DNA of 64,000 bases from the NCBI RefSeq assembly GCF_000784835.1, contig NZ_JSFH01000009.1:62001-126000 (forward strand), in the 5' to 3' direction. The notes under the pieces were generated by a model that had not been told where the DNA came from, made no database searches, and saw nothing but the letters and a program-made list of their open reading frames with translations. This DNA comes from Thermotoga sp. Mc24 (GTDB lineage: Bacteria > Thermotogota > Thermotogae > Thermotogales > Thermotogaceae). Below, piece after piece: positions 26,824 through 45,501 of this stretch. Numbering within the stretch: position 1 is the stretch's first letter; the number at the start of each line of letters is the position of its first letter. A program made the translations under genes and the position numbers.

Positions 26824-26835
26824 CCATAAACGGAT

Positions 26836-26910: not shown

Positions 26911-26913
26911 GCA

Positions 26914-26943
26914 GGCTCCCTCAGGGGAGCCGTTAATTTTTTT
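26914..26943 (+). terminator. Terminator after tRNA-Val(CAC)
   Basis: GGCTCCC and GGGAGCC pair around a four-base loop and are followed by GTTAATTTTTTT, a good intrinsic terminator four bases after the tRNA CCA end. Confidence 0.8.
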
Positions 26944-26959
26944 AGAGGGAGGGATCGAA

Positions 26960-29263
<2,304 letters not shown>

Positions 29264-29599
29264 TCGATGACATGTAAGTGCTTTGAATTCAGGAAGTTAA
29301 CAGTTAATTTCTAACACATTGAGGAATACCTTCTTTCATCTATTTGTGAAACATAGAACTAATCGATTTTTACCAGAAACACCCCAAAATGCCCCGACGT
29401 AGGTTGATATAATTTATTTTCTGTTTTTTGCTTGTGTTCTTTCGTTGTTGGACTATGCAATTATTCCATTTTTCCAAACAGTACTTGAAGGTGCTCTGTT
29501 GTGTGTTAGAATGGTTTATGGAAAAAGAGAATATGGAAGTTCAAAAAACATCTTGCTTTCAGAGTGTGTTTGTGGTATAATTTCTCTCGAACTCAACGG
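29264..29599 (+). promoter_or_regulatory. CRISPR leader with pre-crRNA promoter
   Basis: AT-rich stretch of about 335 bases without a gene. Near its end an extended -10 (TGGTATAAT, TATAAT at 29576-29581) follows a -35-like TTGCTT (29553-29558) with a 17-base spacer. Transcription would start about 12 bases before the first repeat, which fits a leader at the left end of the array. Repeats are perfect at this side and decayed at the other. Confidence 0.7.
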
Positions 29600-30826
29600 G
29601 TTTCAATACTTCCTTAGAGGTATGGAAACCTGCGATTTTCACGTCGGGAAACTTCGTAGCGCTCTGTTTCAATACTTCCTTAGAGGTATGGAAACGAAGG
29701 CTTGTCCTTTCAGCTGATAAAGTCATTATTCATGGGTTTCAATACTTCCTTAGAGGTATGGAAACACGTTGATTGATATAGTTTTTACAAGTTTAGATAA
29801 GGTTTCAATACTTCCTTAGAGGTATGGAAACGTTCCTGTAGTTCTTGCTTTGCCTCTTCGGGTGTTTGTTTCAATACTTCCTTAGAGGTATGGAAACGGA
29901 TCTTCCCTTCTTTGTGCTCGAATACCCATTCGCGTTTCAATACTTCCTTAGAGGTATGGAAACAGGATACTGGAAAAATCCAGAAGCAAACTGCCAAAAC
30001 GTTTCAATACTTCCTTAGAGGTATGGAAACCCGCCTTGTGCATCCCCATCCCCCCTCTACAGAATCGTTTCAATACTTCCTTAGAGGTATGGAAACACAA
30101 ATCCCGCGGAGACTACATTAAAGCAGAACATGGTTTCAATACTTCCTTAGAGGTATGGAAACGTGGCTGATTGCAGCAAACGCCCAAACTGGCAACCTTG
30201 TTTCAATACTTCCTTAGAGGTATGGAAACATCTTCATCAAAAAGGCCCTCGAGGAGTTCGGTTTGTTTCAATACTTCCTTAGAGGTATGGAAACGCTACT
30301 AGCCATTCTGTGCATCGTCAACTGTGGCAAGTTTCAATACTTCCTTAGAGGTATGGAAACCTGCTCGGGTCAGTTTCAAAATCGTACAATCTATCGTTTC
30401 AATACTTCCTTAGAGGTATGGAAACAACAGCCGGACAGCTTCGGTGCCTTCGAGATATTCGTTTCAATACTTCCTTAGAGGTATGGAAACACCGGGATAC
30501 CAAGCATTCTTTCGAGCACCCTGCAGGTTTCAATAGTTCCTTAGAGGTATGGAAACCAGGGAACAGTACCCTCCCTATGAAACTTCGTGTTGTGTTTCAA
30601 TAATTCCTTAGAGGTATGGAAACGGAACAGGTGCTACAAGAGCACCACGAATGATCTCGGCGGGTTTCAATAATTCCTTAGAGGTATGGAAACTGCCAGG
30701 GAGTCACATAGTTTGATTCCTCAACCTCGAGTTTCAATAATTCCTTAGAGGTATGGAATCGCGGCCAGTCTGCACATTATCTCGCCTCCCTTTTGAGTTT
30801 CAATACATCCTTAGAACTATGGAGAC
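29600..30826 (+). CRISPR. CRISPR array, 19 repeats / 18 spacers
   Basis: A 30-base repeat beginning GTTTCAATACTTCC and ending GAGGTATGGAAAC recurs about every 66 bases, first at 29600 and last at 30797. Spacers are mostly 35-38 bases, with two of 40. The first fourteen repeats are identical. Repeats at 30527, 30594, 30664 and 30731 have a change at position 10 (G or A for C), the one at 30731 also ends GGAATC, and the repeat at 30797 is badly decayed. This polarity puts the leader on the left. No cas gene lies in the window, so the array relies on proteins encoded elsewhere. The GTTTC/GAAAC form is common in Thermotoga arrays. Confidence 0.97.
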
Positions 30827-30862
30827 ATTTCAATTTTGATGCCCGTGTTTGTTTTCGCTTCT

Positions 30863-30892
30863 GTTTCAACATTCCTTATTTTTTGTAGATAA
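30863..30892 (+). repeat. Decayed extra CRISPR repeat
   Basis: Exactly one spacer length (36 bases) beyond the last readable repeat, GTTTCAACATTCCTTA matches the left half of the repeat with one base lost; the right half is gone. It marks the ancient end of the array. Confidence 0.5.
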
Positions 30893-31031
30893 TATTTTTT
30901 GGATCAAGTTAGTCTAGTTTTGTCTTCTGTGGGAAAACAAAAGTTAACTTGATGCTAATCTATATTTTTCAAAAAAGTGATTCAATAAATTTTTGAATTG
31001 TAGAAACAAATGGGCAATAAAGTTTAGAAAA

Positions 31032-32381
31032 ATGGCGGGGAAATTCTTTAAGCTTAAATTCTTCAGGGAAACGTTTCTAGGAAACTTTTTGACCTTCTCT
31101 ATTTCTGCTTTTGAAAGCAATCTGTTGTGGTTATTTCCGTTCTTTTTTTTCTCATTTATCTTTAGAAAGACACTATTGTTTGAGGCTTTGTTTGGAGTCA
31201 TAACGTATTCCTTTATCTTTTCTACAATCGTTTTAGGGGGATTAGCATTTGCTATAGTCAGGATAATATCAGACTTCATATACCTGAATCAACCTCGAAA
31301 AATCTACGAGAACTATTCAGGAGCAGTTTTTTTGGTATTTTTTGTTTCTCTCGCTTCAGGGTACATTTTTTTTCATGATTATCATTACAGAGAAATCGCT
31401 ATGTTTCTTTTCATGGGTTTATCAGTATTACAAGTGAACAGTTTATTCGTTGGAGCTATTGAAAAGACATATTTAACGCTTTTTTCGGTAGGTGCTAGTT
31501 TTTCTTTGGTCGCGCTTTTTTTCAACTTTTTTAAAAACAATATCAACGAGAAAATGGGGATTATGGCCTTTGCTATGTCAATTAGTTTGTCTGTTTTTAT
31601 ATTAAATGTTGTCATTACTAAATATTTGAAAAGTACCACACAAATAAGATTTGATTTTTTGAAGCTTATAGGAAAAAATCCGGAGTTGTTGTTAATAGGT
31701 TATCTCTATTATCTTTCATATTGGATCGACAATATTGTTTTGTGGATACAAAGAGGGATAGAAGTTGCTCCTGGTATTGTTATATATCCTGATTATGATT
31801 TTCCTCTTTTTATAACAAGCGTTTCTTTTATACCTAGCATCGTTTTGATCAATTTGAACATTGAAACTATCTTTTTGGAAAAATACTTAGCATTCTTTTC
31901 TTCTATAAAGAGTAATAAACCTTTGAATCAAATAGAAGAAAATTTGAGAAAACTCAAACTTTCGATAAAGCACATCCTTTTCAAAGTGATATTAGTAGGC
32001 ATTACAACATTAATCTTAAATTTTTCAATTGCTCCTTTTTTTAAGGAATGGGGGATTCTCAACGAGAATTCAATACTTGCCTTTACAGTATCATCTCTTG
32101 GTCATTTTTTTAATGCAGTGTTCGTCTTCCTTATGATCATGTGCCTTTATTTTGGATACTATGCAGAGGCTTTAAAAGGAAATCTAATAGCTTTCGTGGT
32201 GAATTTTGTAGTGTCTTGGTTTTTCGGAAAAACAATTCTTGGGATAGGTTTTCTGGTATCGTTCTTGAGTGGTTCAGTGTTTCTTCTCCACAAATTTGAT
32301 CTTAAGGATCTAATATTCAAAATTTATTCATCCCAACCTCATGGCCTGGAAAAAGTTAAAAGAATATCTTGGAAGCCATAG
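31032..32381 (+). CDS. pelG: PelG-like polytopic membrane protein (module 1)
   Basis: 449 residues, about twelve membrane helices. It belongs to the PelG/MATE-like polysaccharide transporter group: an aromatic N-terminal cytoplasmic start, a conserved GYLYYLSYWIDNIVLW segment in the middle and PHGLEKVKRISWKP at the end, all shared with the copy at 38810. PelG and PelF with PelD/PelE form the synthase that polymerises and exports Pel. I place the start at ATG 31032 (MAGKFF), matching MAGKSF of module 2; there is no good ribosome site. The coding sequence is strikingly AT-rich. It begins 140 bases after the decayed end of the CRISPR array. Confidence 0.78.
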   Translation: MAGKFFKLKFFRETFLGNFLTFSISAFESNLLWLFPFFFFSFIFRKTLLFEALFGVITYSFIFSTIVLGGLAFAIVRIISDFIYLNQPRKIYENYSGAVFLVFFVSLASGYIFFHDYHYREIAMFLFMGLSVLQVNSLFVGAIEKTYLTLFSVGASFSLVALFFNFFKNNINEKMGIMAFAMSISLSVFILNVVITKYLKSTTQIRFDFLKLIGKNPELLLIGYLYYLSYWIDNIVLWIQRGIEVAPGIVIYPDYDFPLFITSVSFIPSIVLINLNIETIFLEKYLAFFSSIKSNKPLNQIEENLRKLKLSIKHILFKVILVGITTLILNFSIAPFFKEWGILNENSILAFTVSSLGHFFNAVFVFLMIMCLYFGYYAEALKGNLIAFVVNFVVSWFFGKTILGIGFLVSFLSGSVFLLHKFDLKDLIFKIYSSQPHGLEKVKRISWKP

Positions 32382-33540
32382 CAGTTATGGAAAATTGTAT
32401 CCTTTTCTTGAAACAATAGGCATTTATTTTGCCTTATATTTATTGCTGATCCTCTTCCAAAATGATTTTATTGAAAAACTCTACATAGTACCCCTGATGG
32501 TTTTGGGAGCAAGGTATGGTTCTACAGTTCAAACAGTTAATGTACTCATGTATTATCTTTTCGTGTTGCTTCTTTCTGAGAACAAAAACCAATTTGAAGA
32601 TGTTTTCTTACACTATGTTTTGATCGTGTCGTCAATAATAGTTTCTTTGATAAATCATAATCATACTCTAAAAATTGTCTTTTTAGAAAAGGATTTAAAG
32701 GAGTCAAGAAATGATCTTGAGAATATAAGAAAATACGTTGATTACCTCGAAGATGTTATTGATAAATTGAAAACAAAACTAATATACGAAAGTGAAGGGA
32801 TAAGTTCCCTGTTAATTGAGTTATCTAATGCTTCTCCTGTAGACTTGAAAGAATTTGCGTATTATTTTCTGGAAAAGATAAGTTCTTTTTTTGAAATAAA
32901 GAGATCTAGCTTTTATTTGTACAAAGCGGGATTCATGAGATTGATAGCGAGCATAGGCCGTCCCTTACTTGGTTTTTCCGCGTCGGTACATCAATCACTT
33001 GTAGTAAAAAAAGCTATAAAAGAAGGAAGCTGTTCAATATTCGATGTTTTAAATCAGGAGGTTCAGCTTAATAAAGAACCTTTGTTAGCTGTTAGGGTTG
33101 GTGAAAAGGATATTTTAGGGGTTATAACTGTAGAAGAAGTGGAAAACCCTGTTCATTTGAACAGCATAGAAAAGAACTTGAGAGCTCTTACAGTGTGGTT
33201 TATAACGAGGTTAGAAAAAGTAGAAGAAGAAATTCAAAAGCATAAATTACCTGACGGAACATATACTGTTGATTTTTACAACTATACAAAGCAGAGATTG
33301 GAGGAACTCTTAACAAGATACAATCTTCCATTTTCGGAAATTTGTATATCAATCTCCGAGGATGAAATAGAAAAAATCATAAAAACTATTAGATCGGATG
33401 ACGTCGTAACAAGAATCAAAACCAGTGATCATAAGATTTTTTTGAAAATACTTCTTCCCTTCTGTGACGAAATAGGGCAAATTGCAGTTATGGAGAGACT
33501 AAAATATGTTGCAAAAACGATTGAATTTTCAAGTTGTTAA
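32341..33540 (+). CDS. pelD: PelD-like cyclic-di-GMP receptor (module 1)
   Basis: 399 residues. About three to four N-terminal membrane helices (to residue 105), a coiled coil (115-150), a GAF domain (about 155-290) and a degenerate GGDEF domain (300-395). An RSDD sequence at 351-354 stands where the RxxD inhibitory c-di-GMP site precedes GGDEF in PelD, while the GGDEF itself is lost (KTSDH). In Pseudomonas, c-di-GMP binding here activates Pel synthesis. The ATG start overlaps pelG by 41 bases; a TTG at 32395, closer to the start of the homolog, is an alternative. Confidence 0.75.
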   Translation: MAWKKLKEYLGSHSSYGKLYPFLETIGIYFALYLLLILFQNDFIEKLYIVPLMVLGARYGSTVQTVNVLMYYLFVLLLSENKNQFEDVFLHYVLIVSSIIVSLINHNHTLKIVFLEKDLKESRNDLENIRKYVDYLEDVIDKLKTKLIYESEGISSLLIELSNASPVDLKEFAYYFLEKISSFFEIKRSSFYLYKAGFMRLIASIGRPLLGFSASVHQSLVVKKAIKEGSCSIFDVLNQEVQLNKEPLLAVRVGEKDILGVITVEEVENPVHLNSIEKNLRALTVWFITRLEKVEEEIQKHKLPDGTYTVDFYNYTKQRLEELLTRYNLPFSEICISISEDEIEKIIKTIRSDDVVTRIKTSDHKIFLKILLPFCDEIGQIAVMERLKYVAKTIEFSSC

Positions 33541-34372
33541 TTTGATAAACTTTTCGATAGCTTTTCTTAATGTGCTAATGTGGATAAATGGAGAAAGTGA
33601 TATGTTTGAATTAGTTTTCATGATCAATCTTATTATTCATTTCTCTTTGAATAAAGACTTATCACAAACCTTGATTTCTATAGTTACATACCCTTTTGGT
33701 TTATTGGTATTCACAAAAAGAAGAAAAATTGATCTACTGATGTATTCCGATGATTATCCCGAAGAGTTCTCTTTTACCTTCAAGGAGAAAAACCTTGAGA
33801 TATTTCCCCTAAAAGGAACATTTCTGTTTGGGACACCGTCTGAAAAGAAAAAATTAATACTCCAGATTGTTAACGATGTTGAGAGTAAAAAAATACCTGT
33901 AAAAACAGCCGTTTCTATCCTTCAGAAAATGGTACTGGATCCTCATCCAGATGTTGGATTATATGCGTCTGAAGCGATAGGGAAAATAGAAAGTCATTTT
34001 AGCGCAGTTGAAAAATCTTTTCAAGAGATTATCGAGAATTTGAATGAAAATAATTATGAAGTTGCTTTGGATTACATAAGGTCAGGGTTTTTAGAGGGAA
34101 AAGTGGGTAGTTTTTATAAAAATCTCTTACTTGAGAAGTTGAAAAATCCGCCAGATGAAAGTCCAGGGTTTTTTATTCTCCACTATGAAGTAAGAGGAGA
34201 TGTATCCATACTCATAGAAGGTTTTTTGAGAACAAAATCACAGGAGATTTATAGGCTTTTGTTGAAGGAATTATTGAGGTTGGGCGATTATAAAAGACTC
34301 AATTTCTTGTTGAGAAAATCTTTTGAGACGAGTAAAGATGAAGATAGAGATTCTTATATCTTTCTATCATGA
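33506..34372 (+). CDS. pelE: PelE-like membrane/scaffold protein (module 1)
   Basis: 288 residues. Two N-terminal membrane helices (LINFSIAFLNVLMWINGE and FMINLIIHFSLNKDL) precede a helical-repeat cytoplasmic part rich in KAI/LE pairs, in place of the TPR repeats of Pseudomonas PelE. It probably joins PelD to the PelF glycosyltransferase. It overlaps pelD by 35 bases, exactly as in module 2, and its 3' end overlaps the convergent pelF by 74 bases. Assignment rests on position, membrane pattern and its similarity to the module 2 copy. Confidence 0.6.
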   Translation: MLQKRLNFQVVNLINFSIAFLNVLMWINGESDMFELVFMINLIIHFSLNKDLSQTLISIVTYPFGLLVFTKRRKIDLLMYSDDYPEEFSFTFKEKNLEIFPLKGTFLFGTPSEKKKLILQIVNDVESKKIPVKTAVSILQKMVLDPHPDVGLYASEAIGKIESHFSAVEKSFQEIIENLNENNYEVALDYIRSGFLEGKVGSFYKNLLLEKLKNPPDESPGFFILHYEVRGDVSILIEGFLRTKSQEIYRLLLKELLRLGDYKRLNFLLRKSFETSKDEDRDSYIFLS

Positions 34373-35720
34373 GATCGAGTCTGTATTTCTTACGGACAAC
34401 TTTTTTCGCATTTTTAGAAAATGTATCTCTCATCTCCTTATCCTCAATCAATTTTAAAATAGCTTTTGCCATCATAAGGTGATTCTTGGGAGGAACAATA
34501 ATGCCACATTGCCCATTTTCATCGTAGATAATTTCCCTACAAGCTCCTACATCAGTAGCAACGACAGGAACTCCCGCTGCCATTGCTTCCAATATTACAA
34601 GTGGTTGTCCCTCCGAGACGCTGCTTAAAAGAAGAAGATCTAGTTTGGGATAATATTCTCGCACGTTTTGACGTCCCAAAAATTCCACAACATCGTCTAG
34701 GAAAAGATTTTTTGTTAGCGCCTTACACTCCTCATAGTAATCCTCTTCTTCATCGGTAGGACCAATTATCAAGAATTTTATTTTTTCGTCTTTTAGAACA
34801 TCTTTGACAATCCTTATTGATCTTATTGCTGTTTTAACATCTTTTATCCTTGTTACTCTCCCCACAAAGCCAATAACAAATCCTTCGTGTTTTTCTTTCG
34901 GCAGATCAAAACTGTCTACGTCGATTCCATTAGGAATTATTATCATTTTTTCTGGATTTGCACCGAGTTCTAACTGGAACATCTGGTTTTTTTGGAAAAG
35001 TGTTGTTAGTGCATCACAAAAATCATAGGCAAGCATACTTATTGCTTTGAATAAGTTTATCCACATGGGTTTATAGTCTTCATGAAGCCATTTAGAAATA
35101 ATTATCTCTCTTTCCCTTTCTCTGTGATAAATACCATGCTCAGTTATTATCAAAGGGGAATTGTGAACAAGTTTTCCTACAATTCCAACGAGGGAGGCAT
35201 ATCCTGTGCTTGGAACATGGAATACATCGCATTTTTCTGGAACAAACTGCAAAGAATTCACCACAGGAAGGATTAGATTCCTAATTATCCAATAGTATTC
35301 GGTAAATCCTCTATGTTTAAAAAATTCGTTGTAGGTTTCAACTACAAGGTTCCAAAATTCTTTACTATAAAATATTTTTGAAAAATATTTTCCGACGTTT
35401 TTTCTTATGAAATCTTTCAGTTTTTCGACCAGAACATCTAAATTTTGTTTTTGAACAATAGCCTTTGTTATTTCGGTAAGTGCCGAAAGGTTAGCTTCTT
35501 CAGGTATTTCAGGGTCAAAATCTCCAAAGATATTCACTTCATGTATACGAACAACGTTTTTTGGTATTTTGTATCTAACCTCTCGTTTCTTCGAATCGGG
35601 GCGGAGGTGATAAATTTCAAATTCAAACTCAGGAAGATTAGAAATAAGAGTTTGAATCCAGCTCGATACTCCCCCTGTAATATAAGGATAGGTACCCTCA
35701 GCGATAAGTCCTACTCTCAT
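34299..35720 (-). CDS. pelF: PelF-like GT4 glycosyltransferase (module 1)
   Basis: 473 residues, a soluble two-domain GT-B enzyme. The N-terminal EGTYPYITGGVSSWI loop, HVPSTGYASL and ITEHGIYH are typical of PelF; the C-terminal domain has GFVGRVTRIKDVKTAI and the nucleotide-sugar motif SEGQPLVILEAMAAGVPVVATD. In Pseudomonas, PelF uses UDP-GlcNAc/GalNAc-type donors. It is transcribed after the GH114 lipoprotein gene, overlapping it by 23 bases, and faces pelE. The whole length aligns with the copy at 42114. Confidence 0.85.
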   Translation of the reverse strand: MRVGLIAEGTYPYITGGVSSWIQTLISNLPEFEFEIYHLRPDSKKREVRYKIPKNVVRIHEVNIFGDFDPEIPEEANLSALTEITKAIVQKQNLDVLVEKLKDFIRKNVGKYFSKIFYSKEFWNLVVETYNEFFKHRGFTEYYWIIRNLILPVVNSLQFVPEKCDVFHVPSTGYASLVGIVGKLVHNSPLIITEHGIYHREREREIIISKWLHEDYKPMWINLFKAISMLAYDFCDALTTLFQKNQMFQLELGANPEKMIIIPNGIDVDSFDLPKEKHEGFVIGFVGRVTRIKDVKTAIRSIRIVKDVLKDEKIKFLIIGPTDEEEDYYEECKALTKNLFLDDVVEFLGRQNVREYYPKLDLLLLSSVSEGQPLVILEAMAAGVPVVATDVGACREIIYDENGQCGIIVPPKNHLMMAKAILKLIEDKEMRDTFSKNAKKVVRKKYRLDLMIERYKNLYLHLYSSQKIFSTRN

Positions 35721-36669
35721 AATCTTTCAATGCCTCTGGCGGTTGTATTCCCTCTATCACATTCATTTCGTCGAGTTCCAAGTCGGATCGAGCAGCGTAC
35801 GGTATACATCCATTTCTTTTGGCCTTCTCGTAGTAATCCAGAATCCGGCTTATGTTTTCAAAAGAATCAGAACCGTCATCGACGTAATCAACAGAGAGAA
35901 TGAATTTTCCCTTTCGATTCAATCTAATGAGGTATTCCAATCTACTCTTTGTCTCGTTTTCTTCAAGAGGGATTGTTTTCAAATAAAACAGGTTCTCAAC
36001 AGCCCATCCCGAAACAGTCGAGGCAAGCTGGCCATCATCGAAATCGAGAATGTTCTCACCGTTTTGAGGTATTATCAGCATGTCTGGTTTTCTCTCTCTG
36101 ACGTATTCAGCAATTTCCAGCACGAAATTTATCATTTTTCTGGCAGCACTTCGTCTTGAAATAACACCTTCTTGAGCCCAGTATTCAAAAGAATCGATCC
36201 TATCTAAGTAGATTCCCTTGAATCCCTGATCGATGACTCTATCGAGGTATGAAAACACGATTTCTTTCCATTCATTGTACCAGTATTTGACAAAATAGTT
36301 CCCTGGCCAAGCAGGATCTTCTTCACCTAACCACTCAGGAGTGTTCGTGTACCAACTTTCTTTCCAGTAAAAGCGATAGTCCTCCGCCTGACCAATGTTG
36401 ACGTAAGCAACAGGAACAACTCCCGCATCTACCATGATTTTAATCTCTTCAGGTGAATATTCTCCACTTTCACTTCCGTCTTTTGAGTAATCTATAACGG
36501 CAATTTCAAAGCCGGATGAAGATATCTCCACGGGATCAGCGTTCTGGAGTTGATAAAGCCAATTGTCAAAAGGCATGAACCATCCCTCTGTTGACATAAC
36601 CGTTGAGCAGGAGGAAATGAAAAACAATGATACTATAATAATGAACAGAATGTTTTTGAGGTGAGACAT
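35698..36669 (-). CDS. GH114-type PelA hydrolase lipoprotein (TM1410 family)
   Basis: 323 residues. The signal sequence ends FFISSCS, a lipobox, so the mature protein is anchored outside the membrane. The TIM-barrel GH114 motifs are present: FEIAVIDYSKDG, PVAYVNIGQAEDYRFYW and KGIYLDRIDSFEYW with the acidic residues. Related domains cleave alpha-1,4-linked galactosamine/GalNAc polymers, and this is the N-terminal half of proteobacterial PelA. Its ATG abuts, base to base, the ATG of the deacetylase gene on the other strand. Confidence 0.85.
   Translation of the reverse strand: MSHLKNILFIIIVSLFFISSCSTVMSTEGWFMPFDNWLYQLQNADPVEISSSGFEIAVIDYSKDGSESGEYSPEEIKIMVDAGVVPVAYVNIGQAEDYRFYWKESWYTNTPEWLGEEDPAWPGNYFVKYWYNEWKEIVFSYLDRVIDQGFKGIYLDRIDSFEYWAQEGVISRRSAARKMINFVLEIAEYVRERKPDMLIIPQNGENILDFDDGQLASTVSGWAVENLFYLKTIPLEENETKSRLEYLIRLNRKGKFILSVDYVDDGSDSFENISRILDYYEKAKRNGCIPYAARSDLELDEMNVIEGIQPPEALKDYESRTYR
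36634..36639 (+). promoter_or_regulatory. Candidate -10 box for the deacetylase gene
   Basis: TATAAT lies 30 bases before the ATG at 36670, within the first codons of the opposite-strand hydrolase gene. No good -35 box is visible. Confidence 0.35.
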
Positions 36670-38820
36670 ATGAGAAAATTCCTCCTTTTGATTCTTGTTC
36701 TGCTTGCGTTCCCCTTCTTTTCTAAGACTCTCCTCCTCTACAAAGGTTCTGAAGGAGGCTATGGTTACAATATCCTTTCATGGTTAGCTCCGGAGCCGGA
36801 AGTTCTGGGGGAGGATTACGAGTTTGTAGACGTGGAAAAATCACTGCCCGATTTTGAGGACTACGATTTCGTCATTACCTGTTACTATTCTTCCTCGATG
36901 CCCGGTGCGAAGAAATATTTGAAAAAACTGGTTGATTTTCTTTTGAATGGAGGCAAGCTGTTCATCATAAACAATCTGGGGGCGTTCGAAGATTCTTCTG
37001 GGGACAATCCCTCTCTGAGCGATATAAACACTCTTCTGAACCTTTTGGGTGTGTCTTTCAGATACGGTTGGCGACAGGAGACGGTTTTTAGCTACGAGAT
37101 CGAAGATGGATATCTCATAAAACTTCCCTCATTTCCCGTTAAAAAAGCATTCGATGGTTTCGAAGTGTTTTCTTCGAATGTCAAAATAGTGTCGTACGCT
37201 GTTACGAAGAAAGGAAAGCATCCGGTAATCTTCTACGGACCTTTTGGCGGCATGGCGCTTTTCGATCACGCTTTCAATGAGAACGGTGAACCTGTTGTTG
37301 ATTTAAGAAAAATTGTCATGGATATTGTCGACGGTTATCGTGAAAACAAAGTGCTGATGCTCGATGAAAATCATCACATAAGGAAGATGTTTGAGTATGC
37401 CCTCTTTGAAGTTGATAGTTCTCGATCTGGTGTCCTTCAAAAATACAGAGCAATCGTGATTCCGGACGTATCCTTTTTGGAAGAAAAGGAAATAAAATCC
37501 TACTTAGAGAACGGCGGTGTTGTGATGCTGGTAGGAAGTGGAACGCATTACATTCAGGGAGAAGTTGTTCTGGAAAAAGAGAATCTGTACATTCCTCAAG
37601 ATATCACCGTTGGTGAGAGAGAAGTGGGCTACATCCCAGCACCCGAGAACGCGAAAGCATTCATAACAATTAGCGGGACACCTGTTTCTTGGATGGAGAA
37701 GAGGGAAAAGGGTGCTTTCGTCTTTTTCCCTGAGGATCTTTTGGAAAAGTGGTCGAGAGGCATTCTATTCAACGAGTTTCTCAAAGCGTCCGATTTTGTG
37801 ATATCTCCTATGGTAAACGCTTTTTCCGTCTTTCTTGACGATTTTCCACTTCCTGCATATGGTATCGAATACGATATTTTAGATACAACCGATGAAATCT
37901 TCTATTATAAAATCTGGTGGCGTGATATGAAAGAACTTTGTGAGGATTTTTCTATAAAACCCATCACCGCTCTTGTAACGAGTTACGAGCAGAAGACAGA
38001 TTACAACGGCTTTTTTGAGTTCCTTGAAAAGGATAGTTCCCTTAAGGTTTTGAAGAACCTCATCGAAGACGAAGGGGTGGATACAGGAATTCATGGTTAC
38101 AATCATGTGCCACCGAAATCAGAGAATTGGGATTTAGAAGAACTTGGAAAAGCATATAAGTCTTTGAGAATTTTTCTTAGTCAGTTGTCATCAAGTTATG
38201 AACCTGTAGCTTTTGTGGCTCCAAACAACGAAATAGATCAGGCGGGGATAGAAGTTCTCAAAAGTGTATTTCCAACGATAAAGGTGATAGGTACGGCGTA
38301 TTCACTAAAAGACAGTACAGGAGAGTTCACCTTGCTGGATGATGCGTTGATACTCCCAAGAACAACGAGCGGTTGCTACCCTCTTCAGAGACTTCTCATG
38401 GAAACGGTGTCCACCCTTTTGAATCTTGGAACCTATCATCACTTTTCTCATCCAGACGATGTCATAAGTCTTGACAGAAATCCAGAAAGGTACAGTTGGA
38501 ATGAAATGTTTGATCAACTCAGGTCTTTCTTCCGAATCATGAAGGAAAATTATCCCTGGCTTAGAAATATGGATTCAAAGGAACTATACAACACTTTCAA
38601 AGATTATTTTGAAAACAAGCCAAGAATTTTGTATCATGACAAAAAAATAGTGATTGTTCTTCCGAGAACAGCTGAACTTCCCCGGTATTTCTTTTTGAAA
38701 GCTAAAGGCGATGTGAACGTACATGGTGGGGTGATCCTGTTCAGAGATAAAGATCTTTGCGTGGTGGAGATAAGGGAATACAAAATGGAGATCTCGGAGG
38801 TAATAGAGGATGGCAGGTAA
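36670..38820 (+). CDS. pelA: PelA-like polysaccharide deacetylase with N-terminal DUF2194 region
   Basis: 716 residues, exported through an N-terminal signal segment (LLLILVLLAFPFFSKTLL). A long beta-alpha region with a Rossmann-like stretch (FLLNGGKLFIINNLGAFED, residues about 80-100) is followed by a NodB-like deacetylase with HGYNH (IDTGIHGYNHVPP), FVAPNNEIDQAG and HHFSHPDDV. It should partly deacetylate the exported polymer. The hydrolase half of a standard PelA is a separate gene here, as in pel clusters of Gram-positive bacteria. The ATG at 36670 is preceded by GAGGTGAG. It overlaps pelG of module 2 by 11 bases, so module 2 is its partner. Confidence 0.75.
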   Translation: MRKFLLLILVLLAFPFFSKTLLLYKGSEGGYGYNILSWLAPEPEVLGEDYEFVDVEKSLPDFEDYDFVITCYYSSSMPGAKKYLKKLVDFLLNGGKLFIINNLGAFEDSSGDNPSLSDINTLLNLLGVSFRYGWRQETVFSYEIEDGYLIKLPSFPVKKAFDGFEVFSSNVKIVSYAVTKKGKHPVIFYGPFGGMALFDHAFNENGEPVVDLRKIVMDIVDGYRENKVLMLDENHHIRKMFEYALFEVDSSRSGVLQKYRAIVIPDVSFLEEKEIKSYLENGGVVMLVGSGTHYIQGEVVLEKENLYIPQDITVGEREVGYIPAPENAKAFITISGTPVSWMEKREKGAFVFFPEDLLEKWSRGILFNEFLKASDFVISPMVNAFSVFLDDFPLPAYGIEYDILDTTDEIFYYKIWWRDMKELCEDFSIKPITALVTSYEQKTDYNGFFEFLEKDSSLKVLKNLIEDEGVDTGIHGYNHVPPKSENWDLEELGKAYKSLRIFLSQLSSSYEPVAFVAPNNEIDQAGIEVLKSVFPTIKVIGTAYSLKDSTGEFTLLDDALILPRTTSGCYPLQRLLMETVSTLLNLGTYHHFSHPDDVISLDRNPERYSWNEMFDQLRSFFRIMKENYPWLRNMDSKELYNTFKDYFENKPRILYHDKKIVIVLPRTAELPRYFFLKAKGDVNVHGGVILFRDKDLCVVEIREYKMEISEVIEDGR

Positions 38821-40186
38821 GAGCTTTGACCTTCTGTTTTCAAGAAACAACCTTTTTTCGGATGTGCTCGCATTTTTCTATTCGACGTTTGTATACTTTG
38901 CACCGTGGTTGGTGGTTTTATTTTACATCATATGGTCGTCCAGGTGGTTCTCACCTTCTCCCTTCTTTCTCAGTGTGTTGAGTTATTCTCTCATCTTTTC
39001 AATGATAATCTCTGGTGGTATGTCTTTTCTCATTTCCAGATTTCTAGCAAATTGTATCTATTCAAGGGATCAGAGAAAGATCTATGAGAGCTATATAGGT
39101 GCTGTATTACTGGTTTTTTCTGTTTCGCTTGTGATCGGATTGATATTTTTTGCCGTGAACAATCAATATTTTCTGGTTCAAAAGATCCTTGCCTGTTACA
39201 CTTTTGTTGGCTTTTCGCTTGTCTGGATTTTGATGCAGTTTGCTTCTGTAACGGAGAAAGAATCGCTTGCAGTTTTGGCTTTTGCAGGTGGCATCGTGGT
39301 TTCTGTTCTCCTTGCGCGTTTCTGGGACATTTCAATGGAAGAGAAGCTTCTTTTGACACTGGACATTGGAATAGGTCTGATAATCTTCATGCTGAATTTT
39401 CTCATTCTTAGCTATTTGAGAAGCTCGATCCGAATAGGATTTGATTTTCTTCTGCTAACAAGAAAACATCCTCAGCTCCTTTTTATCGGATACTTTTATT
39501 ATCTTTCGATCTGGATCGACAACTTTATTGCCTGGAAAGTAAAAGGGATTGAAATCGCACCTGGATTTTTCATGTCTCCAGAATACGACATACCGAAGTT
39601 CATGGCGAGTCTGTTTTTCATACCGAGTCTGGTGGTGTTCAATCTAAGTATGGAAACTGTCTTTCAAAGAAATTACAAAGGTCTCATGCAATCAATAGTG
39701 AGCGATAAACCGATGCGCGTTATAAGTGAGAATCTGAAAAAGCTTTCACTTTCATTGCGACACGCTTTTTCCAATATGTTTGCGCTGAACATGGTAGCGA
39801 TGATTTCCTGTTTCCTTCTCAGAGATTCTCTCAGATTGTGGTTCAACCTTTCTGAAAGTTTCAACAGAATTTTCGTCTGGGATGTTGTTGGAGTTAGTAT
39901 GAACATAGCCTTTATGTCCCTGCTTGTTGCGTCGCTTCATTTTGAGTATTACGGTATTGCCCTGGAGGGAACTGCTCTTGTTTTGACTTCTAACATGATC
40001 CTGTCTGTTTTTTTCATAGAAAATATACCGGGTCTTAGTTTCGCTGTGGCTTTTTCTGGAGGTTTTCTCTACCTTCTTTTGAGGTTCAAGTCGAAAGATT
40101 TTCTCTACGAGGTTTACACAAAGCAACCACTCGGCCTGGAAAAAGTAAAGAAAACTTCCTGGAAACCAAAGGAGATGATTCGATGA
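38810..40186 (+). CDS. pelG: PelG-like polytopic membrane protein (module 2)
   Basis: 458 residues, about twelve membrane helices, homologous throughout to the copy at 31032, including the conserved GYFYYLSIWIDNFIAW and QPLGLEKVKKTSWKP segments. Unlike module 1 it has a clear GGAGGT ribosome site and codon use like the rest of the chromosome. It overlaps pelA at one end and pelD by four bases at the other. It is the transporter/polymerase partner of PelF. Confidence 0.82.
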   Translation: MAGKSFDLLFSRNNLFSDVLAFFYSTFVYFAPWLVVLFYIIWSSRWFSPSPFFLSVLSYSLIFSMIISGGMSFLISRFLANCIYSRDQRKIYESYIGAVLLVFSVSLVIGLIFFAVNNQYFLVQKILACYTFVGFSLVWILMQFASVTEKESLAVLAFAGGIVVSVLLARFWDISMEEKLLLTLDIGIGLIIFMLNFLILSYLRSSIRIGFDFLLLTRKHPQLLFIGYFYYLSIWIDNFIAWKVKGIEIAPGFFMSPEYDIPKFMASLFFIPSLVVFNLSMETVFQRNYKGLMQSIVSDKPMRVISENLKKLSLSLRHAFSNMFALNMVAMISCFLLRDSLRLWFNLSESFNRIFVWDVVGVSMNIAFMSLLVASLHFEYYGIALEGTALVLTSNMILSVFFIENIPGLSFAVAFSGGFLYLLLRFKSKDFLYEVYTKQPLGLEKVKKTSWKPKEMIR

Positions 40187-41379
40187 AACCGAGAAAGAAG
40201 AGCTGGTTCGTTGAGGTTCTAATTTCCTATGGTATTGTTTTTCTGTTCGATTATTTATACAAAACCGACGTTTTCAAAGAGGCTTTTTTGAATTTTTACT
40301 GGATTCCTCTTCTCATTTTCTGTGTCAGGTACGATCTAGTCGTTCATGTGTTCAGTTCAATTCTTTTCTTCACTTTCATAGTGGTTTCAAAATTTTTGAG
40401 TGAGGAAGGTTTGAACTTCTCCAGTGATTTTGCACTTGCAAATTCCATTATGCTCGTTATTTCCACAGTGCTCTCACTGATAAACGAAGTTAGGGTAAAG
40501 AACATGGAACGATTATCCCTTGAACTTGCTTACAGAAATGAGGATATCTCAAGACTGGAAGAAGAAGTTCGAAAACTTAAGAAGCAGATCAATTCGCTGG
40601 AACAAAAACTCTTCTACGAATCGACGGGAATCAGTTCCTTGTTGATAGAACTCAGGGAAATTTTTACCGAGGACTTCGAGAAGTTCGCACAGAGGTTTGT
40701 GGAAATAGTCTCGGAATACTTCGATGTAAAGAGAATGTATGTGTACAGATACAAGGACGGTTTTTTACGGTTGGCGGCGGGAATTGGAAGACCTGAACTG
40801 GGTTTTTCTCTCAAAAAAGGTGTCTCTCTGGTAGTGGATAAAGCGCTACAGGAGGAAGTGGGCAGAATACTGGATGTTGTAGATCAGGTGAAGTCATCGA
40901 ATGAACCTTGGCTGGCGGTTAGGATAGGTGACGAAGAAAACATCCTCGGGGTAATAACTGTGGAGGAGACCGCAACAGATAACCTAGAGCTCGTGGAAGA
41001 ATATCTCACGGCGCTTGCCGCATGGATCCACATCGTCATGAGAAAACTCGAGTTCGAAAAGTACGAGAAATACAGATTGAAAGATGGAACGTTTCCTGCA
41101 GACTTTTACGAAACAGAGAAAAATCGCTTGAAAGTTTTAGAAGCTCAACATGGGATACCATTCATTGAAGTTTGCGTTCGTATAAAAAGGGAGGAGTTGG
41201 GAAAACTTCTGAAGATCTTGAGGAGAAACGACCTGGCAACGAAGATGTCTGAAGACGGAGAGTATCTGCTTTTGAAGCTTCTCTTCCCCCTATGCGATGA
41301 GATAGGATTCAACATCATAAAAAAGCGCTTGGAGAGTGAGATAAGTGAAGTCGAAATTGTGGATTGTGAATCTCATTAA
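40183..41379 (+). CDS. pelD: PelD-like cyclic-di-GMP receptor (module 2)
   Basis: 398 residues. N-terminal membrane helices (to about 105), coiled coil (110-145), GAF domain (150-290) and degenerate GGDEF. An RRND sequence at residues 347-350 again fills the RxxD position, followed by LATKMSEDGE in place of the GGDEF core. This module therefore also keeps the binding-site signature. It is coupled by ATGA overlap to pelG and by 35 bases to pelE. Confidence 0.8.
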   Translation: MKPRKKSWFVEVLISYGIVFLFDYLYKTDVFKEAFLNFYWIPLLIFCVRYDLVVHVFSSILFFTFIVVSKFLSEEGLNFSSDFALANSIMLVISTVLSLINEVRVKNMERLSLELAYRNEDISRLEEEVRKLKKQINSLEQKLFYESTGISSLLIELREIFTEDFEKFAQRFVEIVSEYFDVKRMYVYRYKDGFLRLAAGIGRPELGFSLKKGVSLVVDKALQEEVGRILDVVDQVKSSNEPWLAVRIGDEENILGVITVEETATDNLELVEEYLTALAAWIHIVMRKLEFEKYEKYRLKDGTFPADFYETEKNRLKVLEAQHGIPFIEVCVRIKREELGKLLKILRRNDLATKMSEDGEYLLLKLLFPLCDEIGFNIIKKRLESEISEVEIVDCESH

Positions 41380-42181
41380 TTTCGCACTGGGAGTTTTAAA
41401 CATAGGACTTTTGCTTCAAGGGGAGAATCCATTTTTCATAATGATCCTCTGTTTGAATCTCGTGATAAGTTTCCTCGTGAATAGAGATGTGTCGCAGATA
41501 GTGATCGCCATCATGACGTATCCTCTCGGCCTCGTGGTACCTCTCAAAAAGAAAAAGCTCCGCTTCGAGGAGGTGGAAAAACCCCAAAAAGTCGAAAGAA
41601 TAAACTTGATGAAAAGATCGTTCAAAGAAGCTATTTTCTTCGGTCGGGATGAAGACAAGAAGAGATCGATTTTGAGACTATCTGAAGATGTTGAAAAAGG
41701 AAAGGTGCCTCCAGAAAGGTTGATTTCTGCCTCGAAAAGATTGATGAAAAACTCAGGTGTCGATGTTGGACTCTATACGACTGAAAGTATTGAGAGAGTG
41801 GAAAAATCTTTCGAAAAAGAGGAAGAGATTCTTTTAAATATCGAAAATCTCGATGGTAAAAGTGAGGAACTCTACGAGAGAGTATGGGATTATCTGGAAG
41901 CGGATTTTGTGTCGGGCAAATTGAAAGAATACTACAGATTTCTGCTGCTGGACCGCTTGAAGTTGCTGGGCAAGGACGAAAGATACTTCATCATGAAATA
42001 TAGAGTAGAACAGAACCTGGAAGTGCTTTGGGAAGGATTGAAACAAACGAGATCTCCACTGATTTACAGAACACTTCTATTCGAACTTCTAAAACGAAGA
42101 AATTACCCTGAGCTCAGACAGTTGAAACTGTTTTTTTCGAAGTCAGAGAAAGATAAAGATTCCGGTACTTCTCAATCATAG
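41345..42181 (+). CDS. pelE: PelE-like membrane/scaffold protein (module 2)
   Basis: 278 residues starting at a GTG behind GGAGAGTGAG. Two membrane helices (LINFALGVLNIGLLLQGEN and IMILCLNLVISFLVNRD) and a helical-repeat tail (VEKGKVPPERLISASKRLMK). It has the same overlaps with pelD (35 bases) and convergent pelF (68 bases) as module 1. Pairwise similarity to module 1 runs throughout (MKRS, DVEKGKVP, DVGLYTTESIE against DVGLYASEAIG). Confidence 0.62.
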   Translation: MKSKLWIVNLINFALGVLNIGLLLQGENPFFIMILCLNLVISFLVNRDVSQIVIAIMTYPLGLVVPLKKKKLRFEEVEKPQKVERINLMKRSFKEAIFFGRDEDKKRSILRLSEDVEKGKVPPERLISASKRLMKNSGVDVGLYTTESIERVEKSFEKEEEILLNIENLDGKSEELYERVWDYLEADFVSGKLKEYYRFLLLDRLKLLGKDERYFIMKYRVEQNLEVLWEGLKQTRSPLIYRTLLFELLKRRNYPELRQLKLFFSKSEKDKDSGTSQS

Positions 42182-43520
42182 TTTCCACTCTGTACTTCTG
42201 GACCACCTTTTTTGCATTTTTCGAGAAAGTATCTCTCAATTTTTTATCCTCATATAGTTTTATGATAGCCTTTGACATTGAAAGATGATCTTTTGGAGGG
42301 ACGACTATACCGCACTGTCCATCTTTGTCGTAGATTATGTCTCTGCATGCTCCCACATCAGTGGCAACGATGGGAACGCCTGCTGCCATCGCCTCGAGTA
42401 TCACAAGTGGTTGTCCTTCCGAAACACTGCTTAAAAGAAGAAGATCAAACTTGGGGTAGTACTCCTTCACGTTTTGAGGACCTAGAAACTCAACGGTGTC
42501 TTCTAGTCGAAGAACCCTGACAAGTCTTTTACATTCGGCAAGATAATCTTCCGCGTCGACCGGTCCTATTATCAAAAATTTCAGTTTTTCTCCAACCACT
42601 TCCTTGACAATACTGATAGCTCTTATGGCGGTTTTAAGATCTTTTATTCTGGCAACGCGTCCCACAAATCCCACCACGAATCCTTCGTGTTTCTCTGGAG
42701 GAAGATCGTATTCTTCCACGTTTATTCCGTTTGGTATGATGAACATTTTTTCCGGATCAGCACCGAGCTCGAGTTGATAAATCTGGTTTTTTCTGTAAAG
42801 AGTGGTGAGAGCGTCAGAAACTCTATAGGCGATCATGCTTATAATTCGAAAAAGTTCGATCCACATGGGTTTATAAGCATCTGGTACCCAGGTGGAGAGG
42901 ATTATCTCTCTTTCTCGCTCTTTGTGATAAATACCGTGCTCTGTTATCACAAGAGGAACGTCATGAACAAATTTTCCGTTCACACCTACCAAGGAAGCGT
43001 ATCCTGTGCTTGGAACGTGGAACAAATCACATCTGTTTGGTACAAACTGGAGAACATTAACCACAGGAAGGAAAAGGTTCATTATCATCCAATAGAATTC
43101 GGTAAGACCTCTTTCCGAGAAGAATTCTTCGTATATTTTCAACAAAATGTTCCAGAATCCCTTCGTTTTCAGCATTTTTCGAACGTTTTTCCCCGCGTTT
43201 TCCCTGATGAAGTCTGTTGCGAAAGAGACGATTGAACGTATATCTCTTTCAATAGAAAGTTGTGAAACTATTCTTTCAAGAGACTCTAAATTTGCTTTTT
43301 GAGAACTGTTAGATTCAAAATCACAAAATATATTCAGCTCGTGTACAGCTGTCACATTTTCTGGGATCTTGTACTTGATTGTCTGTGGTTCTGTGACAGC
43401 TTTCAGATGGTATATTTCAAACTCAAATTCTGGAAGATTTGTCAACAGCGTGTGAACCCAGTTTGAAACCCCGCCTGTTACGTAAGGATACGTTCCTTCC
43501 AGAATAAGTCCAATCTTCAT
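42114..43520 (-). CDS. pelF: PelF-like GT4 glycosyltransferase (module 2)
   Basis: 468 residues, GT-B fold. It has EGTYPYVTGGVSNWV, HVPSTGYASL, ITEHGIYHKE, GFVGRVARIKDLKTAI and SEGQPLVILEAMAAGVPIVATD. I start at the ATG at 43520 (MKIGLILEG) with GGGGTGG; a GTG nine bases earlier is weaker. It has its own extended -10 promoter. In module 2 it stands alone on the minus strand, since the hydrolase gene is adjacent to module 1 pelF instead. Confidence 0.87.
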   Translation of the reverse strand: MKIGLILEGTYPYVTGGVSNWVHTLLTNLPEFEFEIYHLKAVTEPQTIKYKIPENVTAVHELNIFCDFESNSSQKANLESLERIVSQLSIERDIRSIVSFATDFIRENAGKNVRKMLKTKGFWNILLKIYEEFFSERGLTEFYWMIMNLFLPVVNVLQFVPNRCDLFHVPSTGYASLVGVNGKFVHDVPLVITEHGIYHKEREREIILSTWVPDAYKPMWIELFRIISMIAYRVSDALTTLYRKNQIYQLELGADPEKMFIIPNGINVEEYDLPPEKHEGFVVGFVGRVARIKDLKTAIRAISIVKEVVGEKLKFLIIGPVDAEDYLAECKRLVRVLRLEDTVEFLGPQNVKEYYPKFDLLLLSSVSEGQPLVILEAMAAGVPIVATDVGACRDIIYDKDGQCGIVVPPKDHLSMSKAIIKLYEDKKLRDTFSKNAKKVVQKYRVETMIEKYRNLYLSLTSKKTVSTV

Positions 43521-43552
43521 AGGTGCCACCCCTTGATGAACTCATCGATTTC

Positions 43553-43561
43553 ATTATACCA
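43553..43561 (-). promoter_or_regulatory. Extended -10 promoter of pelF (module 2)
   Basis: On the minus strand TGGTATAAT is about 33 bases ahead of the pelF ATG. It follows directly on the terminator of the ABC exporter operon. Confidence 0.55.
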
Positions 43562-43563
43562 GC

Positions 43564-43590
43564 AAAAAGGCAGGGAAATCCCCTGCCTTT
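43564..43590 (-). terminator. Terminator of the ABC exporter operon
   Basis: AAAGGCAGGG and CCCTGCCTTT pair around a short loop. On the minus strand the stem is followed by TTTTT, and on the plus strand by GTTTT, so it may act in both directions. It separates the exporter from pelF. Confidence 0.75.
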
Positions 43591-43607
43591 GTTTTACTGT
43601 TGATATC

Positions 43608-44378
43608 TCAACTTATTCTTGCTCTTTCGAAGCTTTCCATCGCGAGGATGAGCCCCACCAGCATCAAGATCGAGAGAATTCCCCAGTCGAGGCCGAAAGA
43701 GAACTTCATCACTTTTTCTCCCACTAAGTACCCTCTCGAGGCGTCCACCGCGTAGGTGAGGGGATTTATGTAGGCAAGAGCCTTCATCCAGTTTGGCATG
43801 GAATCGATGGGATACATTGCACCGCTCAGAAAGACCAGAGGCATCATCAGAGTCATCATGATCATCTGGAATCCCTCAGTGCTTTCCATCTTCAAAGCAA
43901 GCGCAATACCAAAGCTTGCAATGGTAACTGACATGAGAAATCCAACGGCGAGAGCGGGAAGTAGCCCGGATATTTTCAAACTTTCTGCGAGGAAGTAGTT
44001 GAGGACGAGAATTATAAGTCCCTGTAAAACGGTAACGATCGCATCTCCAACGATTCTACCTGTGATGCTGAGTCTTCGTGAAGAGGGAGCCACCAGAACC
44101 TCTTTGAAGAAGCCAAACTGTTTGTCCCAGATCAAACTCACACCGCTGATGAAACTCATGTTGAAAACTGTCATAGCGAAGATACCAGGTGCGAGGTAAG
44201 TCAGGTAATCCACTCCACCAAACATCATTTTCGCCCAGGGATTATCGAAAACTTTGCTCCATCCCAGCCCGAAGAAGATGATCCATATCAGAGGGTTTAT
44301 TATCATTCCAATGACTCTCGAGCGTGATCTCAAGAATCTCATGAACTGCCTGTAGATCATCGTCACAAAGGCTGCCAT
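43608..44378 (-). CDS. ABC-2 type exporter permease
   Basis: 256 residues and six predicted helices. The pattern matches drug-exporter/NodJ-type permeases: RVIGMIINPLIWIIFFGLGW, then KEVLVAPSSRRLSITGRIVGD and MMPLVFLSGAMYPID with NPLTYAVDASR. It pairs with the ATPase four bases upstream. The exported molecule cannot be inferred. Confidence 0.85.
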   Translation of the reverse strand: MAAFVTMIYRQFMRFLRSRSRVIGMIINPLIWIIFFGLGWSKVFDNPWAKMMFGGVDYLTYLAPGIFAMTVFNMSFISGVSLIWDKQFGFFKEVLVAPSSRRLSITGRIVGDAIVTVLQGLIILVLNYFLAESLKISGLLPALAVGFLMSVTIASFGIALALKMESTEGFQMIMMTLMMPLVFLSGAMYPIDSMPNWMKALAYINPLTYAVDASRGYLVGEKVMKFSFGLDWGILSILMLVGLILAMESFERARIS

Positions 44379-44382
44379 GCTA

Positions 44383-45366
44383 TTACCTCCTCATCCTCAT
44401 TCTCATTCTTGCCATGGTTTTGAAAGAGTTCTCCGGTCCTTCCTCTCTGAGCTCCCTTCCTGTGAGATGGAGGAAAACATCGTTGAGCGTGGGTTTATGA
44501 TAGGTGATTTCTTCTATTTTCAAACCCTTCTGCTGTGCCAGTTCGAAAATCTTTGGTATCGCCCTTCCAGAATCTTCCACATTCAGTTCCAGCCTTCCAT
44601 CGGGGAGTTTTCTACACGACTCTATGAAGTCGCCTTCGAGACATTCAACGGCTTCAGAGAATCTCACGTAGATAATCTCTTTTCCGACCATTCTCTTCAA
44701 CTCGGTTGGAGTTCCGAGTGCTATGATTTTCCCGTGATCTATGATCGCCACTCTGTCAGCAAGCTGTTCTGCCTCGTCCATGTAATGGGTGGTGAGAAAG
44801 ATTGTCATGTTGTGTTCTTTTTTCATTTTCGAGATGTATTCCCACATATGCGCTCTTGTGTGTGGATCGAGACCAATAGTGGGTTCGTCGAGAAAGAGAA
44901 CTTCTGGTTCATGTATCAAGGAGCGAGCTATTTCGAGTCTTCTTGCCATGCCACCACTGAACGTTTTGACCGGTTTGTCTTTGAACTCCAGAAGTTCCAC
45001 GAACTCGAGAAGTTCAAGGATTCTCTTTTTGAGTTTTTCTCCACCGTAGCCGTATATTTTTCCGTGTATGTACATGTTTTCATACGCGGTGAGCTCTCTG
45101 TCCAGTGATTGATCCTGAAAGACTATACCGATTTTTCTTCTAACCTCTCGAGGTTCTTTCAGCACGTCATGACCGGCAACCCATGCCTTTCCACTCGTCG
45201 GTTTTAGAAGCGTGGTGAGCATGTGAATGGTGGTGGTTTTTCCCGCACCGTTTGGACCAAGAAAAGCGAAGATTTCTCCTTTCTTCACTGAGAAGCTGAC
45301 TCCTTTGACCGCTTCGAAATCTCCGAACTTTTTCACCAGATTTTCCACGACGATAATGTCTTCCAT
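44383..45366 (-). CDS. ABC exporter ATPase (DrrA/NodI type)
   Basis: 327 residues. Walker A is GPNGAGKTTT, the signature is FSGGMARRLEIARS, Walker B is VLFLDEPTIGLD and the H-loop THYMDEA. A C-terminal extension of about 80 residues (DUF4162-like) ends in an unusual arginine/methionine repeat, RMRMRMRR, whose DNA also provides the ribosome site for the permease. The ATG at 45366 follows GGAGGTG. A single promoter with a palindromic operator lies upstream, so the pair appears to be regulated. Confidence 0.87.
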   Translation of the reverse strand: MEDIIVVENLVKKFGDFEAVKGVSFSVKKGEIFAFLGPNGAGKTTTIHMLTTLLKPTSGKAWVAGHDVLKEPREVRRKIGIVFQDQSLDRELTAYENMYIHGKIYGYGGEKLKKRILELLEFVELLEFKDKPVKTFSGGMARRLEIARSLIHEPEVLFLDEPTIGLDPHTRAHMWEYISKMKKEHNMTIFLTTHYMDEAEQLADRVAIIDHGKIIALGTPTELKRMVGKEIIYVRFSEAVECLEGDFIESCRKLPDGRLELNVEDSGRAIPKIFELAQQKGLKIEEITYHKPTLNDVFLHLTGRELREEGPENSFKTMARMRMRMRR

Positions 45367-45391
45367 CTCTGACACCTCCATAGAGTCAAAA

Positions 45392-45411
45392 GATATATCG
45401 ATAGATATATC
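45392..45411. promoter_or_regulatory. Palindromic operator at the exporter promoter
   Basis: Two copies of GATATATC, each self-complementary, are separated by GATA. The site begins about eight bases past the -10 box on the minus strand, i.e. over the predicted transcription start, as for a repressor such as a TetR-, PadR- or MarR-type protein. No regulator gene is adjacent. Confidence 0.55.
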
Positions 45412-45418
45412 CTCTGGG

Positions 45419-45448
45419 ATTATAAAATAATATGCATGGATGTGTCAA
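45419..45448 (-). promoter_or_regulatory. Promoter of the ABC exporter operon
   Basis: On the minus strand, TTGACA (45448-45443) and TATAAT (45424-45419) are both perfect, with an 18-base spacer. Confidence 0.8.
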
Positions 45449-45501
45449 TCAGTTTGAACTTGAAGACAGAGAAAAGGATCTATTAATTTGGAGGGGAAAA
45501 C

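Follow-up and report, generated by a model that had tools for sequence, protein, structure and literature searches.

Our analysis concerns a stretch of 64,000 nucleotides from the genome of the heat-loving bacterium Thermotoga sp. Mc24, the whole of which we call the window, and within it a locus for the biofilm polysaccharide Pel whose synthesis and export half, made up of the genes pelG, pelD, pelE and pelF, is present twice around one hydrolase and one deacetylase. We consider it likely that this half was duplicated in tandem before the radiation of Thermotoga and that both modules are active, share the single pair of finishing enzymes and differ mainly in how they are controlled. Judged by their sequences, the modules are homologous, have intact motifs, go back to an old duplication, are under purifying selection and have recurrently been lost, either copy of them. 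Each consists of pelG, pelD and pelE on the forward strand with a convergent pelF on the reverse strand (31032-35720 on the left, 38810-43529 on the right), and about 3 kb lies between the two. The parts of the locus, and the evidence on which each is named, are as follows.

31032..32381, forward strand: pelG_L, membrane exporter subunit, left module (PF16933, 199 bits against a cut-off of 29)
32341..33540, forward strand: pelD_L, cyclic di-GMP (c-di-GMP) receptor, left module (alignment to pelD_R; RxxD at residues 351-354 and R386; AlphaFold2 model with Foldseek matches)
33506..34372, forward strand: pelE_L, putative membrane anchor with helical repeats, left module (alignment to pelE_R; AlphaFold2 model)
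34299..35720, reverse strand: pelF_L, GT4 glycosyltransferase, left module (NF038011, 352 bits against a cut-off of 100; EX7E motif SEGQPLVILE)
35698..36669, reverse strand: GH191 hydrolase, orthologue of TM1410 (TIGR01370, 517 bits; PDB 9eux, 2aam and 9euz)
36661..38820, forward strand: DUF2194 protein, deacetylase of the PelADA/CE26 type (PF09960, 614 bits; match to 9zau; motifs)
38810..40186, forward strand: pelG_R, membrane exporter subunit, right module (PF16933, 349 bits)
40183..41379, forward strand: pelD_R, c-di-GMP receptor, right module (alignment to pelD_L; RxxD at residues 347-350)
41345..42181, forward strand: pelE_R, right module (alignment to pelE_L)
42114..43529, reverse strand: pelF_R, GT4 glycosyltransferase, right module (NF038011, 325 bits)
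29600..30826, forward strand: array of clustered regularly interspaced short palindromic repeats (CRISPR), a neighbour outside the pel system (19 repeats of 30 bp, the last five degenerate)

No reading frame of the locus is broken, and each left protein can be aligned with its right counterpart from end to end, with identities of 37-66% (PelG 39%, PelD 38%, PelE 37%, PelF 66%), which bears out the preliminary description of a pelG-pelD-pelE set with convergent pelF that occurs twice and is homologous over its full length. The assignment to Pel, made there as well, is upheld by matches far above the curated cut-offs, PelG to PF16933 with E-values of 1e-58 (left) and 7e-104 (right) and PelF to NF038011 with 7e-105 (left) and 8e-97 (right), and every component except PelE has a family or structure match. 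The one hydrolase and one deacetylase seen between the modules are indeed there, as a GH191 and a DUF2194 protein; the placing of the former in GH114 has to be corrected, since it belongs to the family now called GH191 and is TM1410 (PMC12054363). We set the start of pelG_L at 31032, where MAGKFF... aligns with MAGKSF... of pelG_R (a longer TTG frame begins at 30993), and an alternative start of the DUF2194 protein is possible at ATG 36670.

How widespread is this arrangement? In a set of 103 Thermotogota species genomes (G000 is the genome of the window, and the other numbers of the form G0xx denote other species), PelG occurs in 42, and two full-length copies occur in three, G000, G092 and G094, all of the genus Thermotoga; the other double matches are fragments or fall below threshold. 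The three have the order of all ten genes in common and are bordered on the left by bfrA (DNA identity 78%), and the recurrence of one layout in independently sequenced genomes indicates more than chance. An assembly artefact is unlikely, since the layout is also found in G092, a single-contig genome. Within the genus the modules form a series, with both present in these three species, the right one only in G091, the left one only in G095 and none in G093 and G096; in the last of these no match to PelG, DUF2194 or PelF reaches the cut-off. We take G091 to match T. maritima MSB8, G092 T. neapolitana and G093 T. petrophila RKU-1.

Separate trees of PelG, PelD, PelE and PelF agree in topology with the concatenated tree. 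All Thermotoga copies form one clade, left and right copies being sister clades within it, and the other Thermotogaceae lie outside both; in the concatenated tree the left clade, which includes G095, has support of 100/99 and the right clade of 100/100. The approximately unbiased (AU) test rejects a recent or lineage-private tandem duplication (p 2e-5), a grouping of G095 with the right clade (p 2e-4) and G095 as a pre-duplication state (p 1e-5), the last of which is also opposed by gene order, the right module being absent exactly between the two genes that flank it in G092. As read from these trees, the synthesis and export half was duplicated before Thermotoga radiated. The genome survey and the PelF and PelG phylogenies were suggested in the preliminary description; with both carried out, a recent tandem duplication is refuted by the trees, and the difference in composition between the modules is real. 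Nor is gene conversion between the two PelFs supported as the source of their 66% identity: each groups with its own orthologues (82% for PelF_L, 71% for PelF_R), and PelF simply evolves slowly. Elsewhere in the Thermotogaceae, DUF2194 lies directly upstream of a single pelG-pelD-pelE set, with a convergent pelF in G089 and G099 and a divergent GH191 gene in G088. We take DUF2194-pelG-pelD-pelE to be the ancestral unit; the layout of the window would result if this unit was doubled in tandem and the GH191-DUF2194 pair at the far left was lost.

The hydrolase between the modules matches PDB entries 9eux, 2aam and 9euz over its full length, its translation is identical from end to end in the MSB8-like genome G091, and it is thus the same enzyme as TM1410/TmGH191 (PDB 9eux, 2aam; PMC12054363). 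The catalytic Asp and Glu of GH191 are present (D156 in YLDRID, 154-159, and E225 in GWAVE, 221-225, in TmGH191 positions), and there is a weak sequence match to the PelA structure 5tsy (E 8e-4). TM1410 founded the family GH191, of which an environmental member, Env-GH191, cuts Pel; the same paper treats the isolated TmGH191 enzyme and makes no mention of an operon in its text (PMC12054363). The DUF2194 protein matches B. cereus PelADA (9zau) with E 1e-27 in an alignment that pairs up DDFP, HGYNH and HPDD, the motifs for metal binding and catalysis, and PelADA is a deacetylase needed for Pel, the founder of CE26, with a modelled docking on PelG (PMC13254593). Members of the genus that carry a module, whether one or both, have a single DUF2194 each, and G091 (right module only) and G095 (left only) each retain exactly one GH191-DUF2194 pair. 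The strongest sign that this pair can serve both modules is that either of them can be kept alone beside it. Each module can apparently, to judge from these genomes, make use of the single pair, and in a cell with both the two would share it. The DUF2194 family is also matched in our control genome of Methanocaldococcus jannaschii, an archaeon that may live alongside Thermotoga; this match, together with the name MJ1477/TM1410 of the hydrolase family, suggests that such a deacetylase and hydrolase pair may exist in this archaeon.

How would such a locus work? We suppose that c-di-GMP would bind to the I-site of PelD, that PelD and PelE would hold PelF at the membrane beside PelG, that PelF would polymerise an amino sugar (supplied, by analogy, as UDP-N-acetylgalactosamine, UDP-GalNAc) and that PelG would export the chain. 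The deacetylase would strip acetyl groups from the emerging chain and the GH191 enzyme would trim it. Both modules would perform Pel synthesis in this way and share a deacetylase of the CE26 type and an extracellular endo-galactosaminidase of family GH191, the one pair left between the two copies. The activity of the modules, the sugar, the actual sharing and a division of labour between the copies are what we infer from the genes.

The residues R351, D354 and R386 of PelD (left numbering) are invariant in all 11 Thermotogaceae PelDs, and RxxD is present in 22 of the 22 Thermotogota PelDs examined; the equivalent residues of B. cereus PelD, R363, D366 and R395, are needed to bind c-di-GMP (PMC7112168). 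The predicted c-di-GMP site is thus kept in both PelD_L and PelD_R. For PelD we turned to a fold search, since a profile built from its sequence failed to pick up the PelD entries of the PDB. In the AlphaFold2 model of PelD_L (mean predicted local distance difference test score, pLDDT, of 64, with the GAF region poorly modelled) the top seven Foldseek matches are P. aeruginosa PelD (best E 1.8e-4), and the C-terminal domain superposes on c-di-GMP-bound PelD 4dn0 with Z 9.9 and 2.8 A over 95 residues. The model of PelE_L has hydrophobic N-terminal helices followed by an alpha-solenoid, which is consistent with PelE and not diagnostic of it: its PDB matches are all generic helical repeats, and scans with family models gave no match for PelE. 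The Mc24 genome has ten GGDEF-domain matches. After the pel locus of G092 (L083:213-5669) and G095 (L082:11026-16336) come two proteins of the HD-GYP type, which are probably phosphodiesterases of c-di-GMP, together with one of the MBL fold and one of the YdcF/DUF218 family, a block that does not lie beside the locus in the window.

Since PelG, PelD and PelE are the most diverged proteins, the copies probably differ, as far as their sequences tell, in regulation, in c-di-GMP sensitivity or in contacts with partners rather than in the sugar. A bolder reading, which we regard as rather unlikely, has two synthases, separate since before the radiation of the genus, that make functionally or chemically distinct (or mixed) polymers in one cell, with a shared deacetylase and hydrolase and with separate c-di-GMP thresholds. 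That the modules make chemically different polymers, or that PelF_L and PelF_R form a mixed synthase with a mixed polymer, seems to us improbable. Such a difference would suit export and regulatory subunits that are only 37-39% identical, and the keeping of both modules in three species; however, the PelF active-site motifs TEHGIYH-K/R-ER and SEGQPLVILE are common to both copies, which argues for the same donor sugar, and each module also exists alone.

The left module differs from its surroundings in composition. We compared the GC content at third codon positions (GC3) with that of the other genes of the window, 43 open reading frames (ORFs), and with local backgrounds in the other genomes. 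The left-module genes of the window have GC3 of 0.30-0.33 against 0.51 +/- 0.05, so that the description of this module as AT-rich stands, while the composition of the right one, called normal, proves less AT-rich than the left and nevertheless mildly AT-rich, with a mean GC3 of 0.45. In the three two-module species (G000, G092 and G094) GC3 is 0.31/0.30/0.28 for the left module and 0.45/0.46/0.41 for the right, against local backgrounds of 0.51/0.53/0.50; the module of G095, at 0.42 against 0.43, has an ordinary composition. The simplest reading of these values is a single shift towards AT that came after G095 had split off, preceded the divergence of the other three species and has persisted since. 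Being old and persistent, it is no mark of a recent entry. The acquisition inferred in the preliminary description, taken as a recent event in the Mc24 genome, is moreover rejected by equally AT-rich orthologues that occupy this position in G092 and G094, and by left and right being sister clades inside Thermotoga. Two causes may lie behind the shift, a replacement from an AT-rich relative in that period or a drift under weaker codon selection.

The first of these would make the left module a xenologue, replaced or acquired from an AT-rich close relative after the G095 split and before the split between T. maritima-type and T. neapolitana-type species, which we find distinctly unlikely. It would explain why GC3 is 0.28-0.31 in three species and 0.42, equal to background, in G095, and it would agree with the long branch of 0.41 changes per column that leads to the three left copies. 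On the other hand, these copies always sit between bfrA and GH191 and group with the G095 module in a single clade inside Thermotoga, and the signature of a donor would be expected to fade while orthologues fell to 49-82% identity. Our scan of named genome contigs, made with two peptide patterns and thus of limited sensitivity for distant forms, turned up neither a donor nor a nearer relative of PelG_L beyond the Thermotogaceae. The left module does adjoin the decayed end of the CRISPR array, as had been noted, where 14 perfect repeats are followed by five with 1, 1, 1, 2 and 4 mismatches. G092 and G094 lack a CRISPR in the interval from bfrA to pelG_L, and this neighbourhood is therefore uninformative on the origin of the module. 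About 235 bp ending before the array (29064-29300) are found eight times in G093, which is how a CRISPR leader would behave, and an 80-residue ORF at 29021-29263 that overlaps this putative leader is probably not a gene.

Loss of either copy or of both is, by the genomes compared, a recurrent event in the genus. All that G091 retains of the left module is the first 89 codons of pelF_L, which are 100% identical to those of the window. They form a chimeric ORF (L002:10298-11035), continuing in frame into the final 156 codons of a helicase gene, of which an intact copy lies elsewhere in G091 beside a CRISPR array. The junction falls on a shared 6-bp microhomology, TTGTTC, and the similarity on its other side ends in CRISPR repeats, which suggests that a CRISPR-linked rearrangement, an exchange between arrays, removed the module. 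In G093 the whole locus is gone, with bfrA, a short CRISPR and an ABC permease lying about 0.8 kb apart. In G095 the GH191-DUF2194 pair is followed directly by the HD-GYP gene that follows pelF_R in G092, and the right module is therefore missing exactly there; the left-type module lies beyond an inverted block.

Between G092 and G094 all ten genes have rough ratios of nonsynonymous to synonymous change (dN/dS) of 0.06-0.20, which indicates purifying selection, and dN is 0.15 for PelG_L and 0.18 for PelD_L against 0.07 and 0.10 for the right copies. A left module that is redundant and on its way out, being AT-rich, fast-evolving and dispensable with no product of its own, would account for this roughly twofold faster change and for the loss in G091, but it is very unlikely given that all four left frames are intact in three species with dN/dS of 0.07-0.19 and motifs kept, that a left-type module is the sole one retained in G095 and that the right copy has been lost in other lineages too.

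Several points weigh against two active modules derived from one old duplication. PelE is assigned by position and helical architecture rather than by a family match, and the PelE tree is weaker than the others (83/65). The dS values are near saturation, which makes the dN/dS values rough. A simple duplication does not account for a left module so rich in AT, which a close relative of like composition could have replaced before the three species split. TmGH191 itself is without confirmed activity on galactosaminogalactan oligomers, and it is solely the relative Env-GH191 that cut Pel (PMC12054363). Lastly, the case has been built on sequences and structure models.

The layout of the genes bears on their expression. 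pelE and pelF overlap tail to tail by 74 bp on the left (34299-34372) and 68 bp on the right (42114-42181), and by 22-74 bp in every module where the two are adjacent, the outgroups G089 and G099 included; the synthase gene is therefore transcribed against the rest of its own complex. The pel operons of Pseudomonas and Bacillus are co-directional. This conserved convergent overlap could couple expression via antisense transcription. pelF_L reads on from GH191 with an overlap of about 20 bp and pelG_R from DUF2194 with one of about 10 bp. The starts of GH191 and DUF2194 are head to head, their 5' ends overlapping or abutting (36661-36690), so that each promoter may sit inside or beside the opposing gene, and a strong ribosome site of GH191, AAAAGGAGG, lies antisense within the signal-peptide codons of DUF2194. 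The claim that the left module is weakly provided with ribosome sites holds for pelD_L and pelF_L, which have no clear site, and fails for pelE_L, which has GGAG; the annotated start of pelF_R is poor too. A riboswitch search with Rfam over 26000-46000 matched solely a tRNA, and promoter and terminator scans gave no more than in shuffled sequence.

Among known systems, pelDEADAFG of B. cereus ATCC 10987 (PMC7112168; PMC13254593) has in common with this locus a PelD with the RxxD c-di-GMP site, a putative PelE, a separate PelADA-type deacetylase, PelF, PelG, a hydrolase that is a separate protein and a locus without PelB or PelC. It differs in that the Thermotoga order is pelG-pelD-pelE with a convergent pelF, the hydrolase is GH191 and not PelAH/GH166, the synthesis and export half is present twice and the organism has an outer sheath, the toga. 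With pelABCDEFG of P. aeruginosa the locus shares homologous PelF, PelG and PelD as well as predicted hydrolase and deacetylase functions; there, however, PelA is one fused protein of GH166 and a CE21-type deacetylase, whereas the Thermotoga pair is separate, there are two modules, and the locus, which is where we looked, has no PelB or PelC. Two Pel systems per genome are also found in Nitrosospira and Leptospirillum, but in the 2020 survey every whole-operon duplication was at least 10 kb apart (PMC7112194), whereas the Thermotoga modules are 3 kb apart, have no modification genes of their own and share one pair.

The same survey reported Pel operons in Thermotogae (PMC7112194), so that the novelty supposed for Thermotoga is confined to the linked, unequal twin modules. 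In the literature searched, which mostly leaves out subscription journals, we found no linked, old and unequal pair of modules with one modification set and single-module relatives. What is new is thus the linked, ancient, unequal twin modules together with natural single-module strains. The locus supplies a genomic context for TM1410, whose structure has been known since the structural-genomics era, and for DUF2194, which is still labelled as of unknown function. Moreover, the natural series of strains with both modules, the right one, the left one or none allows one to ask what each Pel synthase contributes without any engineering, and makes the shared use of one modification pair by two synthases testable.

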